Assembly: GCF_004217545.1 (NCBI RefSeq)
Contig: NZ_SHKY01000001.1
Location: 5,456,001 to 5,520,000, forward strand
Direction: 5' to 3'
Source of the DNA: Krasilnikovia cinnamomea
GTDB taxonomy: Bacteria > Actinomycetota > Actinomycetes > Mycobacteriales > Micromonosporaceae
Length of the DNA: 64,000 bases
Shown here in pieces: positions 6,766-13,430 of this stretch. How positions within the stretch are numbered: position 1 is the stretch's first letter; every line of letters starts with the position of its first letter. The notes under the pieces are model-generated. The model ran no database searches, was not told the origin of the DNA, and saw only the letters and a list, made by a program, of their open reading frames with translations. A program made the position numbers and the translations under genes.

Positions 6766-6964
6766 CTCGGCTCCTTCCTGCTTGCGTGCACCACGCTAGG
6801 CGGCACGCCCGGGCGGGACCCGACATCCTGAGCCCGGTTCGGTCGGGGCAGGGCCGAAGCGCCTGGGTCCGCTATCGCATGAGAAAAACCGATTGTCGCC
6901 TAACGCCGTACTTACGCCTTTTACTGTTCCGGCGTCGGGGTGACGAGGCCAGGAGGTTGTGCGG

Positions 6965-9900
6965 ATGCTGCCCACGGTCCGGTGGGGCTGGCGAGCGATC
7001 GCGCCCGTCGTGGCGATGACGGCCGCGATGCTGCCCGCCATCGCCCTGCGGCCCGCGCCGGCCGAGGCGGCCTCAGCCGGCACCTGGAACGGCTCGCGGG
7101 CCGAGCTCTTCCTCATCGACGTCGTCACCCCGGCGATCGCGCCGGGCGGCGGCTCCCGCCCGGTCACCGCCACCCTGGTCAACCACGGCCCGAGCAACGC
7201 GACCAGCATCCGGTTCCGGTACACCGTGCCCACCGGTCTGACCTATTCCGGCGCCAGTGTGGGAGGGGGCTCCTGCACGTTCAACGCCCCGACGGTGAGC
7301 TGTACGGTCGCGAGTCTCGCCAACGGCGCGCGGGTGCCCGTGTCGGTGGAGCTGGCCGCGCCCGGTGGCACGCCGGTCGGCGCCAAGGCCGGCGCGTTCA
7401 GCGCGGTCACCGCGGACCAGTTCACGCCCGCGGGCGGGAACCTGCTGCTGCGCCTGCGCGACCCGCACTGGATCGGCAACGACGAGGACAACCTGATCTC
7501 GCCGCTGTGGCCGCCGTCGGATCCCTACACGGGGGCGCCGCCGCGATGCCGGGACTTCACCGACTACTTCGGCGTCTTCCACCCGTGCTCGGCGACCGTC
7601 ACCACCACAACCGTCCTTTCGGACACCGCCAACCACTGGTGCGAGCTCACATCGGAGATCAGGAACTGCATCCGGACCTGGGAGCTCGTGGGGACCTACT
7701 ACGCGACGGCGACCGGGACCGTGAATCTGTGCATGACCAAGGCCGACGACGGCGCGTACGTGAACTGGTCTTCCGCCTACGACCCCGCCGTCGGCGCCGG
7801 GCCCAGCGGGCCCTACCACAACGTCGCCGAGACGCCATCCTGGTCGCCGACCTGGAACACCGGCGGCTGGTCGGTGACCGCCGGGCGGGCGTACCGGTTC
7901 AGCATCCGGATCGCCAACCGCGACCGGGTGACCGGCGGGTTCACCTACGGTGCGGGTGGCTTCGCCAGCGTCGGGTTGTCCACCGTGAACGGTGGCGCGG
8001 CCACCTGCCGGTTCCAGAACTTCGCGCCGCCGCAGCCGGCGAACGTGACGGTGTCGGCGAACGCGGCCAGCGTGCGCCTGTCCACCGAACTGGGTACGGC
8101 GCGGGCCGAGCAGCCGGACCAGTTCACGGTGCAGATCCGGGACGGCGGCGGGGTGGTCAACTCGACCGTGGCCAGCACCACGGCCGGCTCGGGCAGCACG
8201 GTCACCCCGGGGTCCGGCACGACCGGGTCGACCGATGTGACACCGGGCGGCGGCTACAGCCTGACGGAGGTGGGCGCGGGCGCCACCGACTTGTCCCGGT
8301 ACGACACGTCGATCTCCTGCACCAACTCGAACGCCGGGTCACCGACGGTGCTGCCGGGCGGGACGGTCGACCTCAACGCGCCGCCGACACTCACCCCGGC
8401 CGCCGGGGACGCGATCGACTGCGTGCTGACCAACACCGTGCGTCCCCGGCTCACCATCGTGGCCACCACCGCGATCCTGGACGGGACGTTCGGGTACACC
8501 GTCAGCGGCGGGCCGACCCCGGCCAACCCGTCGATCACCACCGCCGGACGCACGGGCTCGCTCGTCCTGGACGGCACCCAGGTCGGCCAGCAGGTCGACG
8601 TGGTCGCCGATCCGGTGACCGGGTGGCGGATCAGCAGCAGCGTGTGCACGAACGCGAACAACGGCACGACCGTGGCGCTGCCGTACACCCTGCAGACCGG
8701 CGACGACATCGTCTGCACGTTCGTCAACCGGCCGATCGCCGCGGTCTACCAGCCGTGCCCGGCCAGCAACCTGGTCCGCAACGGCACCTTCGGCACCGGC
8801 CTGACCTCGTGGAGCGCCGGGGGCGGGTGGACGGCGGCCGGGGGCCGGGCCGTAAACACCGACCCGGCCGCGACGTTCGCGACCGGCCAGCTCCGCCAGA
8901 CCGTCTACGGCGTGACCCCCGGCGCAGGGCTCGCGGTCGACGTCATCCCGGCCGACGGCGCGGGCGGAAACGGCGGCAACCAGGCCGCACTGCAGATCGT
9001 GTACGACGGAACCGTGTACGCCACGATCACCAGCACGGCGGCCGCCGCCGGGTTCGGCGGCAACGCCATCGTGGCCGGGGCCAACGGCGCCACGGTGTCC
9101 CCGGCGACCATCCCGATGGCCGGGGGCGGCACGGTCACGCTCACCCTTCCCGGCGGGGTGCCCAGGACCGGCGAGCTGCGATTCCAGATGGCCGTCACCG
9201 GCGCCGGCGACACCAACAACGCGGCCGACAGCTTCGGGGTGGACAACGTCCAGCTCCACGCGGCGGCGATCTGCCTGCAGGTCGAGTCGGTCGGCGGCCA
9301 CGGCACCTTCGCGTTCACCACCACCAACATCGACACCGCCCCGGCGACCCCGGCCACCGAGCCCGGGTTCACCGTGACCACGACCGCGGGCAGCAACCCG
9401 GCCACGGTCAACCCCGACTTCACCGCCGCCCCGCAGTTGTCCGTGCTCACCCCCGGCACCGACGTCACGTTCGCGCAGAGCGGGCCGGTGGGCTGGCAAC
9501 CGGACACGATCACCTGCCAGAACGCCGCCACCGGCGCGGATGTCCCGGCCGGCATCGCGGCGGGCACGGTCACCGTCGACGGCGCGACGATCGCCGGGCA
9601 GACCATCGTCAACTGCTACCTGACCGAGCAGCTCCTGCTGCCCACGGTCACGCTGGTGACCACGACCATCTCGCGCGACGCCACCTTCGGGTACACGGTG
9701 ACCGGCGGGCCCACCCCGGCGACGCCCTCGATCACGACATCACATCAGGTCGGCACCCGTACGCTGGGCAACACCCAGATCGGTCAGGTCCTCGGCATCA
9801 CCGCGAACCCGGTCTCCGGATGGCGGGTCAGCACCCGGGTCTGCGTCGAGGCGCGCACCGGTGCGTTGGTCGCGCTGCCGTACACGCTGCAGGCCGGCGA

Positions 9901-11326
9901 CGATCTGGTCTGCACGTTCACGAACCGGCCCGTCGCACCCGCCGGACAGCCGTGCCCCATCACGAACCTGATCCGCAACGACACGTTCGGCAGCGGGCTC
10001 ACCGCCTGGGACCACAGTGGATCGTGGGTGGTGGCCGGTGGGCGGGCGACCAACCCGGACCCGGCGGCGACGTTCGCGACCGACCGGCTCGCGCAGACCG
10101 TCAGCGGCGTCGCCCCGCGCGGAGCCATCGCGGTCGACGTCGTGCCCCGCGACATCGGCGCAGGCGACCAGGCCCGGCTGGAGATCTCCTACGGAGGCAC
10201 CCGCTACGCCACGGTCGCCACGTCCCCGGCCGATGCCGTCGGCGGCAACGCCACGGTCACCGAAGCCAACGGCGCCACCGTCTCCGACCTCGCACTGCCG
10301 ATGAACCAGTCCCGCACCCTGGTCGTCTACCTGCCACCCGCAGGCGTGCCCAAGTCGGGCGCCCTGGAGTTCCGGTTCGAGGGCGCTAACACCGGCGCCA
10401 GCACCGCCGACACCGTCCTGCTCGACGAGGTGCGGGTCCTCACCACCGCGATCTGCCTGCAGGTGCGCTCACACGGTGGCGTCAGCACCTTCCGCTACAC
10501 CACCGGCAACGTCGACACCGATCCGACCGTTGCCGCCGACGTACCCGTCTTCACCGTGACCACCACCGCCGGGCGGAATCCCGCGACGGTCAACCCCGAC
10601 TTCACGGCCGGGGGAACCCAGCTGCTCGTACCCACCCCCGACCTGGACGTCAGCTTCACCCAGACCGGCCCGGTCGGCTGGAAATTCACCCAGCTGACGT
10701 GCCGGGACGCCTTCACCCAGGCGCCGGTGCCGGTCACCTTCACCGGCTCCACCGCCACCATCGCCGGGGCCGGGGTCGCGGCCTACACCATCGTCAACTG
10801 CCTCATCACCGACCGGACCCACCGGTACGCGGTGACGAAGACCGCGAACCGGTCCGCGGCGCTGCCCGGACAACTGGTCACCTTCACCGTGACGATCACC
10901 AACACCGGCGCCACGGCCTATCCCGACGCGTCCTTCCGCGACGATCTGTCCGGTGTGCTCGATGACGCCACCCTCGTGTCTCTACACGCCACCCGTGGGT
11001 CCACGGTCGTTCGCACGCCCTACCTGACCTGGAACGGCGACCTGCCGGTGGGCGCCGAGGCGGTTGTCACGTACACCATGCGGGTCCAGGACGTTCCCGC
11101 GGGCGACCGCCGGCTGGACAACACGGTGACCGTCGACGCGCCCGGCGCGCACTGCGTGACCCAGGGCGCCCGCTGCCGCGCCGTGACCGCCGTGGCGCCC
11201 GGGAGGCCGGGCACCGGCGTTCCGGTCACCGGCCCGGCGGCGGCACCGGCCGGGTACCTCGCCGTGGCGATGATCGTCCTGGGTGTGTTCCTTCGCCGGG
11301 CGACCCGGCGGCGTCCTGGTCGCTGA
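6965..11326 (+). CDS. large secreted repetitive surface protein with DUF11-type domain and C-terminal anchor
   Basis: A 1,453-residue exported protein. I chose the ATG at 6965 because AGGAGG ends 8 nt upstream; a GTG at 6959 is too close. A signal peptide (residues about 1 to 35, ending APAEAASA) is followed by beta-rich repeats. One long unit occurs twice (begins PCPASNLVRNGTFGTGLTSW and PCPITNLIRNDTFGSGLTAW), each followed by shorter modules such as GFTVTTTAGSNPATVNPDFT. A DUF11-like domain lies near the end (TVTITNTGATAYPDASF). The C-terminus has a VPVTG motif, a hydrophobic segment and RRATRRRPGR, which looks like a non-canonical sorting signal. It is probably an adhesin or structural surface protein; no enzyme motif is seen. 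Confidence 0.82.
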   Translation: MLPTVRWGWRAIAPVVAMTAAMLPAIALRPAPAEAASAGTWNGSRAELFLIDVVTPAIAPGGGSRPVTATLVNHGPSNATSIRFRYTVPTGLTYSGASVGGGSCTFNAPTVSCTVASLANGARVPVSVELAAPGGTPVGAKAGAFSAVTADQFTPAGGNLLLRLRDPHWIGNDEDNLISPLWPPSDPYTGAPPRCRDFTDYFGVFHPCSATVTTTTVLSDTANHWCELTSEIRNCIRTWELVGTYYATATGTVNLCMTKADDGAYVNWSSAYDPAVGAGPSGPYHNVAETPSWSPTWNTGGWSVTAGRAYRFSIRIANRDRVTGGFTYGAGGFASVGLSTVNGGAATCRFQNFAPPQPANVTVSANAASVRLSTELGTARAEQPDQFTVQIRDGGGVVNSTVASTTAGSGSTVTPGSGTTGSTDVTPGGGYSLTEVGAGATDLSRYDTSISCTNSNAGSPTVLPGGTVDLNAPPTLTPAAGDAIDCVLTNTVRPRLTIVATTAILDGTFGYTVSGGPTPANPSITTAGRTGSLVLDGTQVGQQVDVVADPVTGWRISSSVCTNANNGTTVALPYTLQTGDDIVCTFVNRPIAAVYQPCPASNLVRNGTFGTGLTSWSAGGGWTAAGGRAVNTDPAATFATGQLRQTVYGVTPGAGLAVDVIPADGAGGNGGNQAALQIVYDGTVYATITSTAAAAGFGGNAIVAGANGATVSPATIPMAGGGTVTLTLPGGVPRTGELRFQMAVTGAGDTNNAADSFGVDNVQLHAAAICLQVESVGGHGTFAFTTTNIDTAPATPATEPGFTVTTTAGSNPATVNPDFTAAPQLSVLTPGTDVTFAQSGPVGWQPDTITCQNAATGADVPAGIAAGTVTVDGATIAGQTIVNCYLTEQLLLPTVTLVTTTISRDATFGYTVTGGPTPATPSITTSHQVGTRTLGNTQIGQVLGITANPVSGWRVSTRVCVEARTGALVALPYTLQAGDDLVCTFTNRPVAPAGQPCPITNLIRNDTFGSGLTAWDHSGSWVVAGGRATNPDPAATFATDRLAQTVSGVAPRGAIAVDVVPRDIGAGDQARLEISYGGTRYATVATSPADAVGGNATVTEANGATVSDLALPMNQSRTLVVYLPPAGVPKSGALEFRFEGANTGASTADTVLLDEVRVLTTAICLQVRSHGGVSTFRYTTGNVDTDPTVAADVPVFTVTTTAGRNPATVNPDFTAGGTQLLVPTPDLDVSFTQTGPVGWKFTQLTCRDAFTQAPVPVTFTGSTATIAGAGVAAYTIVNCLITDRTHRYAVTKTANRSAALPGQLVTFTVTITNTGATAYPDASFRDDLSGVLDDATLVSLHATRGSTVVRTPYLTWNGDLPVGAEAVVTYTMRVQDVPAGDRRLDNTVTVDAPGAHCVTQGARCRAVTAVAPGRPGTGVPVTGPAAAPAGYLAVAMIVLGVFLRRATRRRPGR

Positions 11327-11442: not shown

Positions 11443-11562
11443 CCGAAAGTATGAGTCGCAACCGGTAGGCAACCTTCGCGGACCCGGGTGCGCACCGCAC
11501 GACCCCGAATCTTCTTCATGTGACCGGCTGACGTGGGCCGGACCAAACGGGGGAGATTCACT
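11443..11562 (+). promoter_or_regulatory. conserved leader, copy A (upstream of GH26-like gene)
   Basis: About 120 nt that recur at 12806 with about 92 percent identity, both ending at a GTG start within GGGGGAGATTCACT-GTG. Elements shared by both copies: CCGAAAGTATGAG; a direct repeat GCAACC-GGTAG-GCAACC with 11-nt period; GACCCCGAATCTTCTTCATG; a hairpin CCGGC/GCCGG (loop of 8); and AGATTC at the ribosome binding site, which can pair with GAATCT upstream. The 11-nt direct repeat resembles an OmpR-family operator. The 3' part could fold to mask the ribosome binding site. It does not match a riboswitch I can name. Confidence 0.55.
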
Positions 11563-12648
11563 GTGGGCCGCAAGGTGAACAAGGTCGTGACCCTGCTCGG
11601 TGCGATGCTGGCCGGGACCACCGCCGTCATCGGCGCGGCCGGTGCCGCGCACGCCACCCCCGCCTCCTCGGCGAAGCCGAAGAAGGAGCAGCCGCAGTGC
11701 GTCACCGACGCCAAGCTCGTCCCCTCGTGTGGGGTGCTGTGGGGCGCCGCCGCGGGTGGGTTCACCTCGGCGCCGCGTGACGCGGAGTTGAAGAAGTGGG
11801 AGAAGCTGTCCGGCCGGACCGCGTCGATCTTCCACACCTACCACAAGGGTGACGAGGTCTTCCCGACCAAGAGCGAGATCGCCATGACCTCGGATCCGGC
11901 CAAGCCGCGGGTGCTGCTGGTCAACTGGAAGATCGCCTACGGCTCCACCTGGGCCAAGGTCGCCAAGGGCGAGCAGGACGCCCGGATCGACAAGTTCGCC
12001 CAGCGGGTGAAGAGCACCTACGGCGACAAGAAGTTCTTCCTGGTGCTCAACCACGAGCCGGAGAACGACGTGAACCCGCGCAAGGGTTCCGGGATGGAGG
12101 CCAAGGACTTCGCCGCCATGTACCGGCACACCATCGCGCGCCTGGAAGCGAAGGGTGTGGACAACGCGATCAACGTGATGGCGTACATGGGTAACGAGAA
12201 GTGGATGGCGCAGTCCTGGTGGAACGACCTGTACCCGGGCGACGACGTGGTGGACTGGATCGGCCTGGACTCGTACGTGTCCGCGGAGAAGGGGTACTAC
12301 CACTACGGCCAGTTCGCCGACCTGCTTGACCGTAAGGCCAAGGGCGGCAAGGGTCAGGGTGGTCTGGGCTGGTACGACTGGGCGGTCAAGAACCACCCGT
12401 CGAAGCCGATCATGATCGCTGAGTGGGGTGTGTACCACCGCATCGGCAAGCCGGTCGACAAGACCGCCGGCTACAACAGCGTGTTGCCGGAGCTGGCCAA
12501 GCGGCCCGGGATCAAGGCGATCGTGTACTTCGACACCAAGCACGACGACGAGGGCAACCGCGACATCAGCATCGACTCCACCAAGAAGAACCTGGCCGCG
12601 TTCCGGACGCTGGCCGCGAACCCCATCTTCAACGTGAAGATCGCCTGA
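11563..12648 (+). CDS. secreted GH26-like glycoside hydrolase
   Basis: A 361-residue exported protein starting at GTG 11563 behind GGGGGAG. The signal peptide is about residues 1 to 30 (ends AGAAHATPA). The mature part is a TIM-barrel-like glycosidase: a GTFTSAPRD-like start (AAGGFTSAPRDAELKKWEKL), an acid/base-type NHEPEN near residue 167, and IMIAEWGVY near residue 290 as the likely nucleophile. These match the GH26/mannanase-type layout, so it probably cuts a mannan or other beta-glycan outside the cell. Substrate assignment is inference. A strong terminator follows. Confidence 0.72.
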   Translation: MGRKVNKVVTLLGAMLAGTTAVIGAAGAAHATPASSAKPKKEQPQCVTDAKLVPSCGVLWGAAAGGFTSAPRDAELKKWEKLSGRTASIFHTYHKGDEVFPTKSEIAMTSDPAKPRVLLVNWKIAYGSTWAKVAKGEQDARIDKFAQRVKSTYGDKKFFLVLNHEPENDVNPRKGSGMEAKDFAAMYRHTIARLEAKGVDNAINVMAYMGNEKWMAQSWWNDLYPGDDVVDWIGLDSYVSAEKGYYHYGQFADLLDRKAKGGKGQGGLGWYDWAVKNHPSKPIMIAEWGVYHRIGKPVDKTAGYNSVLPELAKRPGIKAIVYFDTKHDDEGNRDISIDSTKKNLAAFRTLAANPIFNVKIA

Positions 12649-12669
12649 CCCAGGAGCACACAGCAACCC

Positions 12670-12703
12670 CACGAGCCGCCCGGCACCAGCCGGGCGGCTC
12701 GTG
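12670..12703 (+). terminator. intrinsic terminator after GH26-like gene
   Basis: A perfect 15-bp stem (CACGAGCCGCCCGGC, loop ACCA, then its complement) 21 nt past the stop codon. There is no T-run, as is common for actinomycete terminators. Confidence 0.8.
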
Positions 12704-12805
12704 CCGTGACCGCCGGGGTGCGTTCCCCTGCGGTGTCCTGGGTCCCGGACCGCCCCGGTGGCCGGTCGGACCAGCCCGGTGGGCCGCCTCGTTAAGCGCC
12801 ACTGG

Positions 12806-12926
12806 CCGAAAGTATGAGCTGCAACTGGTAGGCAACCCGCGCGGACCCGGGCACGCACCGCACGACCCCGAATCTTCTTCATGTGACCGGCTGACATGGG
12901 CCGGACCAAACCGGGGGAGATTCACT
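12806..12926 (+). promoter_or_regulatory. conserved leader, copy B (upstream of CAP gene)
   Basis: Second copy of the leader described at 11443. It differs at about ten positions and by one inserted C before GGGGGAG. The direct repeat reads GCAACT-GGTAG-GCAACC. Similarity runs into the first codons of both genes (GTG-GGY-CGC-AAG) and stops abruptly upstream of CCGAAAG. This points to a duplicated control unit rather than a duplicated gene, since the two proteins are unrelated. Confidence 0.55.
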
Positions 12927-13430
12927 GTGGGTCGCAAGACGATGCGCAAGGTCGCGACGATGGTCGGCGTGCTGCTCGCCGGTGCCGGTGCCTCGCTGGT
13001 CACCCTGACGGTGACCGCCGCACCCGCCCAGGCCGCCACCGTCACCACGTCCACCCTGCAGTCGCAACTGGTGACCTACACCAACAACACCCGCGTCCGG
13101 GCCGGCTGCAAGCCCATCCGCGTCGACAGCCGCCTCCTGCTGGCCTCCCGCGGCCACAGCGCCTACCAGGCCCGCACCCGCAAGATGAGCCACATCGGCG
13201 CCAACGGCTCCTCGTTCGTCACCCGCGCCCGCACCGCCGGCTACGCCTACCCGATGAGCGAGAACGTCGCCTACGGCTACACCACCGCCTCCGCCACCAT
13301 GAAGGCATGGATGGCCAGCCCCGGCCACCGAGCCAACATTGTGGACTGCCGCGCCAAGGCCATGGCCGTCGGCGTCGTCTACGCCAGCAACGGCACCCCG
13401 TACTACACCCAGATGTTCGGCTGGACCTGA
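12927..13430 (+). CDS. secreted CAP (SCP/PR1-like) domain protein
   Basis: A 167-residue exported protein. The signal peptide is residues 1 to about 36 (ends AAPAQAA). A single CAP domain fills the rest: TNNTRVRAGCKPIRVDSRLL, a metal-site-like SENVAYGY near residue 110 and MASPGHRANIVDC near residue 130, with His and Cys residues in family positions. Bacterial CAP proteins of this size are secreted with poorly defined roles. The GTG start at 12927 is set by the GGGGGAG within the shared leader. It lies between two strong terminators and is its own transcription unit. Confidence 0.88.
   Translation: MGRKTMRKVATMVGVLLAGAGASLVTLTVTAAPAQAATVTTSTLQSQLVTYTNNTRVRAGCKPIRVDSRLLLASRGHSAYQARTRKMSHIGANGSSFVTRARTAGYAYPMSENVAYGYTTASATMKAWMASPGHRANIVDCRAKAMAVGVVYASNGTPYYTQMFGWT

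Follow-up and report, generated by a model that had tools for sequence, protein, structure and literature searches.

Two unrelated secreted-protein genes of the window, that is, of the whole 64,000-nt stretch of DNA analysed here, are preceded by copies of one upstream control unit, which is probably a TcrA-type developmental promoter joined to a short leader that opens with a protective stem-loop, the copy of the CAP gene having presumably been captured from a GH26 gene. This reading draws on features that are visible in the sequences themselves, namely the match to the TcrA box, a fixed geometry, covariation in the hairpin, the distribution of the unit and the similar signal-peptide starts of both genes. 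Both genes and their upstream elements lie on the forward strand. The first gene (11563..12648, GTG start) encodes a GH26-like secreted protein with a weak match to the Pfam family Glyco_hydro_26 (PF02156, E 4.1e-05), and the second (12927..13430, GTG start) a CAP-domain secreted protein (PF00188, E 2.1e-17). The original prediction of unrelated proteins behind a shared leader of about 92% identity was confirmed on both points: the products belong to these different Pfam families, and the upstream blocks are identical at 98 of 106 nt before the ribosome binding site (11443-11548 versus 12806-12911) and, once one extra base of the CAP copy is skipped, at 25 of 27 nt (11549-11575 versus 12913-12939). 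Pairwise comparison showed a sharp upstream boundary of the shared block, and the likeness extends past the leader into the signal-peptide codons. The GGGGGAG ribosome binding sites are located at 11549..11555 before the GH26 gene, outside the hairpin, and at 12913..12919 before the CAP gene. Just upstream of the GH26 leader ends the reading frame (6959-11326) of a 1455-residue protein with SpaA-type prealbumin-like and DUF11 domains.

The resemblance between both blocks is beyond chance, as a search of the own genome (G000) returned eight strong copies (E 2.2e-60 to 1.3e-7), five before GH26 and three before CAP genes, with two of the latter encoding the same protein; a ninth, weak copy (E 5.2e-5) was detected by a covariance model. 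By a BLAST-type search the block appeared in 25 of 100 genomes, the own one included, all of a single genus, which we infer to be Actinoplanes from two contigs bearing that name and from the gimA and gimB genes in genome G058 (see below). The covariance model R1, built from 31 leaders and retaining two shifted pairs in one helix, found the block in 65 of the 67 genomes of the genus (E up to 0.01). Across the family, 63 of 354 genomes matched (E up to 0.001), all of them within those 67, and none of the 287 family genomes outside the genus gave a match at that threshold, in a search run with stricter filters by which weak matches are lost. A sample of the order yielded two matches among 150 genomes, the own genome and one marginal hit; the marginal match outside the family (G065) was discarded, since no box could be seen by eye. 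A looser pattern scan of contigs, too loose to be of general use, gave at least 119 stretches; two Actinoplanes contigs stood among the 80 listed, and these two, the only ones examined, both match R1. The further copies that the original prediction had proposed to look for therefore occur across the genus, and its notion of a portable control unit is supported.

The genes behind the unit were classified at 116 places, comprising the places fetched with R1 and including nine of the own genome; L324, where no start codon was found, and nine loci whose leaders were doubled, odd or truncated were left out of this list. GH26 genes follow the unit at 104 of these places and CAP genes at four. Two further places precede members of a second secreted-protein family that has no match in Pfam and to which a BLAST-type search added two more members (L035 and L058), and another two precede FliA/WhiG-type sigma genes, the remaining four comprising one membrane histidine kinase with a MASE1 domain and three short or doubtful readings. 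On contig G058:C1, the GH26 genes lie near 3666089 and 5195506 and the FliA-like gene near 6903193. A signal-peptide-like start was recognized in 135 of 142 downstream readings, by a crude rule and with some genes counted twice. The earlier idea of a unit for exported proteins is thus mostly borne out, with the exception of the two FliA-type sigma genes and the kinase. The latter lies behind the ninth own copy (L400, G000:C1:2872000-2877100) and matches Pfam MASE1, PAS, HisKA and HATPase in a scan of its first 653 residues, an alternative reading being 744 residues long, and was considered as a possible hybrid kinase HhkA; its position indicates that the unit is not restricted to exported proteins.

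The core of the unit is a direct repeat that resembles the binding site of a known developmental regulator. According to the available part of PMC12691653, TcrA of A. missouriensis binds nnGCA(A/C)CCG-n4-GCA(A/C)CCGn and activates gimA and gimB in sporangium dehiscence, as determined by EMSA, qRT-PCR and S1 mapping. The repeat before the GH26 gene (11458..11474, half-sites at 11458 and 11469) differs from this box by one mismatch and that before the CAP gene (12821..12837) by two, while another own copy, at G000:C1:7357192, is an exact fit. The predicted GCAACC-n5-GCAACC form stood for the GH26 gene, whereas the first CAP half-site reads GCAACT. A fixed expression recovered the box in 119 of 125 distinct leaders; visual inspection of the other six revealed a near-box in five and none in L328. 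A second pair of half-sites (GACCC and GCACC before the GH26 gene) is located at 11481..11496 and, before the CAP gene, at 12844..12859, with five mismatches to the full box in each case, and conservation at these two positions, 23 and 34 from the box start, extends over 115 leaders. TcrA-box matches with at most one mismatch numbered 106 in the own genome versus 46 with a reversed-pattern control, and 110 versus 41 in genome G058, which carries the gimA and gimB genes of A. missouriensis. The 11-nt spacing of the repeats agrees with the OmpR-type operator proposed earlier, but MtrA, suggested as a possible ligand, is not needed, since the direct repeat fits the TcrA box.

Taken by sequence, the transcriptional part of the unit would belong to the known TcrA regulon, and TcrA probably acts at these leaders. 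The likeness includes the box-matching repeat, the secreted hydrolases as targets described in the available part of PMC12691653, and a distance of about 61-64 nt from box start to transcription start, the latter predicted here and mapped in gimA and gimB. The window leaders differ from gimA and gimB in having a strict 49-nt spacing from the box to a GAnnnT element and a 5' hairpin. Counting against a TcrA promoter, the own genome has no recognized TcrA gene. GH26 genes are not named among the TcrA targets in the available text of PMC12691653, and our literature search returned no paper joining TcrA, Actinoplanes, response regulator and OmpR. Two side observations concern the surroundings of the box. 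Runs of GCACCCG half-sites every 11 nt, with overlapping TcrA-box matches, occur at G058:C1:7007580-7007619 and G000:C1:1036474-1036513. Directly upstream of the box, the sequence CCGAAAGTATGAG (11443-11457 and 12806-12820) is kept in the own copies and in L032 of genome G049, only partly in L007 and L008, and resembles a CCGAAAGGAG stretch before the gimB start.

Downstream of the half-sites, a GAATCT hexamer (11507..11512 for the GH26 gene and 12870..12875 for the CAP gene) begins 49 nt from the box start in both window copies and is a candidate −10 element of the form xAnnnT. GAATCT or a variant begins at exactly this distance in 115 of 115 scorable leaders, 10 of the 125 being unscorable. 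Among the variants in 122 anchored leaders are GATTGT, GATGGT, GACTGT, GACTCT, GAGTGT, GAGCCT and GAACTT, all retaining A at position 2 and T at position 6; our scripts favoured or required xAnnnT near the hairpin, so this form is partly built in, the exact 49-nt spacing much less so. With GAATCT read as a −10 element, transcription would start just before the hairpin. The nominal start, at index 61 from the box start, is predicted at 11519, and the mapped box-to-start distances of gimA and gimB (64 and 63) would place it at 11522 and 11521, an agreement within about 3 nt that defines a predicted start region at 11518..11522 for the GH26 gene. This transfer can only be approximate, because the −10 slots of gimA and gimB read GAAAGG and AAGGAG. 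The GH26 leaders L039 and L057 were considered as gimA and gimB themselves and rejected; gimA and gimB are other loci and lack the hairpin, and for that reason they served for the box-to-start distance only. A conserved short ORF running from the predicted start was likewise rejected, as its ATG is not strictly kept and the leader length varies.

The conserved CCGGC/GCCGG hairpin of the original prediction is well supported and shows compensatory changes. It occupies 11524..11541 before the GH26 gene (arms 11524-11528 and 11537-11541) and 12887..12904 before the CAP gene (arms 12887-12891 and 12900-12904), and in 115 of 115 scored leaders the stem opens 4 or 5 nt downstream of the nominal, predicted start. 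Considering the 5-bp stem plus two closing pairs, 96.9% of the cells pair in 115 leaders, and sliding of the arms leaves only 16.8-48.2% paired; L053 and L049 were left out of the alignments, and L329 was dropped from the 115-row alignment A4. On each of five measures the observed value surpassed all 500 shuffles, in which relatedness remains. An alignment-free test in which arms were swapped between leaders gave the same picture, a leader's own arms pairing better than swapped ones (0/1000), also after thinning to 55 leaders. The 5-bp stem contains 18 G-U versus 2 A-C cells, which speaks for a sense-strand RNA rather than a palindrome in the DNA; crudely counted, the 17 leaders bearing G-U represent 14 groups at 70% identity. 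When all seven pairs are taken together, the count is 28 G-U, 4 A-C and 21 other cells, the others mostly at the outer closing pair, and the closing U-A pair fails in this register in the window copies, where U faces C. The stem is shifted in L008, and before the FliA-like genes the hairpin is swapped for another stem with a GCAA loop. L297 and L330 carry the leader hairpin doubled and tripled, respectively, before the start codon.

The original prediction had also placed a GAATCT/AGATTC pairing over the ribosome binding site, and both this pair and CCGGC/GCCGG are indeed present as sequences where it located them. A structured leader that hides the ribosome binding site and opens on a signal, as a thermometer or a riboswitch, is nevertheless very unlikely. 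Single folds of 74-nt stretches do show the covering helix in most of 12 leaders (z −0.55 to −3.21), and the whole structure beat shuffles on 31 rows; with 115 rows, however, its values became mixed, the inner stem alone remaining strong, and the outer helix alone was no better than shuffles on any measure, in an alignment with some binding-site columns misaligned by one. The alignment-free swap test gave 34/1000 for the outer helix and 91/1000 after thinning to 55 leaders. Of 101 leaders, 25 contain the exact complement of their own hexamer, 14 more a 5-nt complement, and 62 lack even that. The covering helix thus lacks covariation, GAATCT staying while its partner varies, and no conserved pairing over the ribosome binding site was found in either the 115 rows or the 101 leaders. 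Moreover, under the −10 reading the 5' arm of this helix would not be transcribed, and a search of Rfam returned nothing at the gathering score and, even up to E 5, no match at the block. It is somewhat less doubtful, though still not the reading we prefer, that the inner hairpin, itself well supported, plays another role, as a site for an RNA-binding protein, an aid to translation or a pause element in the nascent RNA. Such roles would suit a stem that is kept while its loop varies from 4 to 10 nt and that can be doubled or tripled; unlike many protein sites, however, the loop is not fixed, and the data do not separate these roles from protection.

Plain duplication, a scenario of DNA exchange between neighbouring genes with a functionless hairpin, has to be weighed at the same time. 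The window leaders (84-100% identical, depending on the segment compared) are more alike than those of the GH26 paralogues L001 and L006 (68-90%), and two own CAP genes encode the same protein. But box, spacing and stem persist throughout the genus and a CAP gene of G049 also has the unit (L032/L242), so that duplication is contradicted as a full account, which we judge unlikely, and may rather explain the high identity of this particular pair. Of 30 CAP loci viewed, two (own and G049) carry the hairpin leader. The other 28, from other genomes, have at least one GCA(A/C)C-n6-GCA(A/C)C in the upstream stretch viewed in 15 cases and none in 13, counts for which there is no chance control, and xAnnnT at 49 was seen in none of these 28. 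Given the box-like repeats of those 15 homologues, CAP may be an older member of the same regulon with another promoter. Past the start codon, CAP and GH26 DNA share 64-74% (L001/L002) and 68-80% (L006/L002) of positions over the following segments compared, the L001/L002 likeness dropping later towards 40-59%. Since CAP carries the leader together with a related signal-peptide start, the simplest account suggests that it acquired promoter, leader and signal-peptide start as one cassette from a GH26 gene, the presumed direction of capture, followed by exchange between neighbours. A further CAP copy without leader (L361, G000:C1:5540000-5541400) has signal-peptide-like codons apparently in another frame, for which reason it may be a decayed copy.

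Under the preferred reading of a TcrA-type promoter with a 5' stem-loop, TcrA would bind the 11/12-nt-spaced half-sites, which end about 10 nt before the GAnnnT −10 element, and once bound would recruit RNA polymerase in a PhoB-like manner. PhoB recruits RNA polymerase from the pho box, where 11-nt direct repeats similarly end about 10 nt before the −10 element at a fixed distance; the comparison concerns operator geometry and not the protein family of TcrA. With transcription beginning just before the hairpin, the mRNA would carry a leader of about 40-48 nt that opens with this hairpin and leaves the ribosome binding site free. The hairpin would then most likely shield the mRNA from decay starting at the 5' end, a protection that would suit messages made in spores or while the sporangium opens. 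Stabilizing stem-loops at the 5' terminus, of the ompA type (Emory et al. 1992), are known elsewhere, as described in the available part of PMC7509114. The window stem shares with them a short GC-rich stem predicted a few nt from the 5' end and a free ribosome binding site; unlike them, it rides on a promoter module and on unrelated genes. The available parts of the literature searched, which did not extend to the primary TcrA and HhkA-TcrA reports, mention no hairpin in TcrA-dependent leaders, and as an RNA element the inner hairpin appears to be undescribed. More tentatively, and with somewhat less confidence than in the promoter reading itself, a genus-wide 5' stem-loop in sporangium promoters could control message life or translation and move between unrelated genes as a promoter-leader-signal-peptide cassette, rewiring sporangium opening.

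These data would tie GH26 hydrolases throughout Actinoplanes, and one CAP protein, to the sporangium programme, and could add a post-transcriptional element to a system described, in the available parts of its literature, at the level of transcription. An unrelated gene may join the regulon by capturing the 5' part of another gene. They also provide a testable promoter grammar for further regulon members, with half-sites at 0, 11, 23 and 34 and GAnnnT at 49. A search for half-sites at 0, 11 and 34 plus SAnnnT at 49 with at most two mismatches, the hexamer form being required, returned 29 places in the own genome versus 7 in the control (21 once 8 hairpin-leader places were removed) and 14 versus 3 in G058 (11 once 3 such places were removed). 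Among 18 places viewed, three were hairpin leaders; nine of the other 15 precede signal-peptide-like starts, as judged by eye, including a glucosaminidase with an SH3 domain, a GH26-CBM96 protein and an M23 peptidase, the rest being one FliA-like sigma gene and five others (one GGDEF protein, some doubtful). The half-site and −10 architecture also occurs without hairpin, in a short leader, before a GH26-CBM96 gene (L368, G000:C1:2438066).
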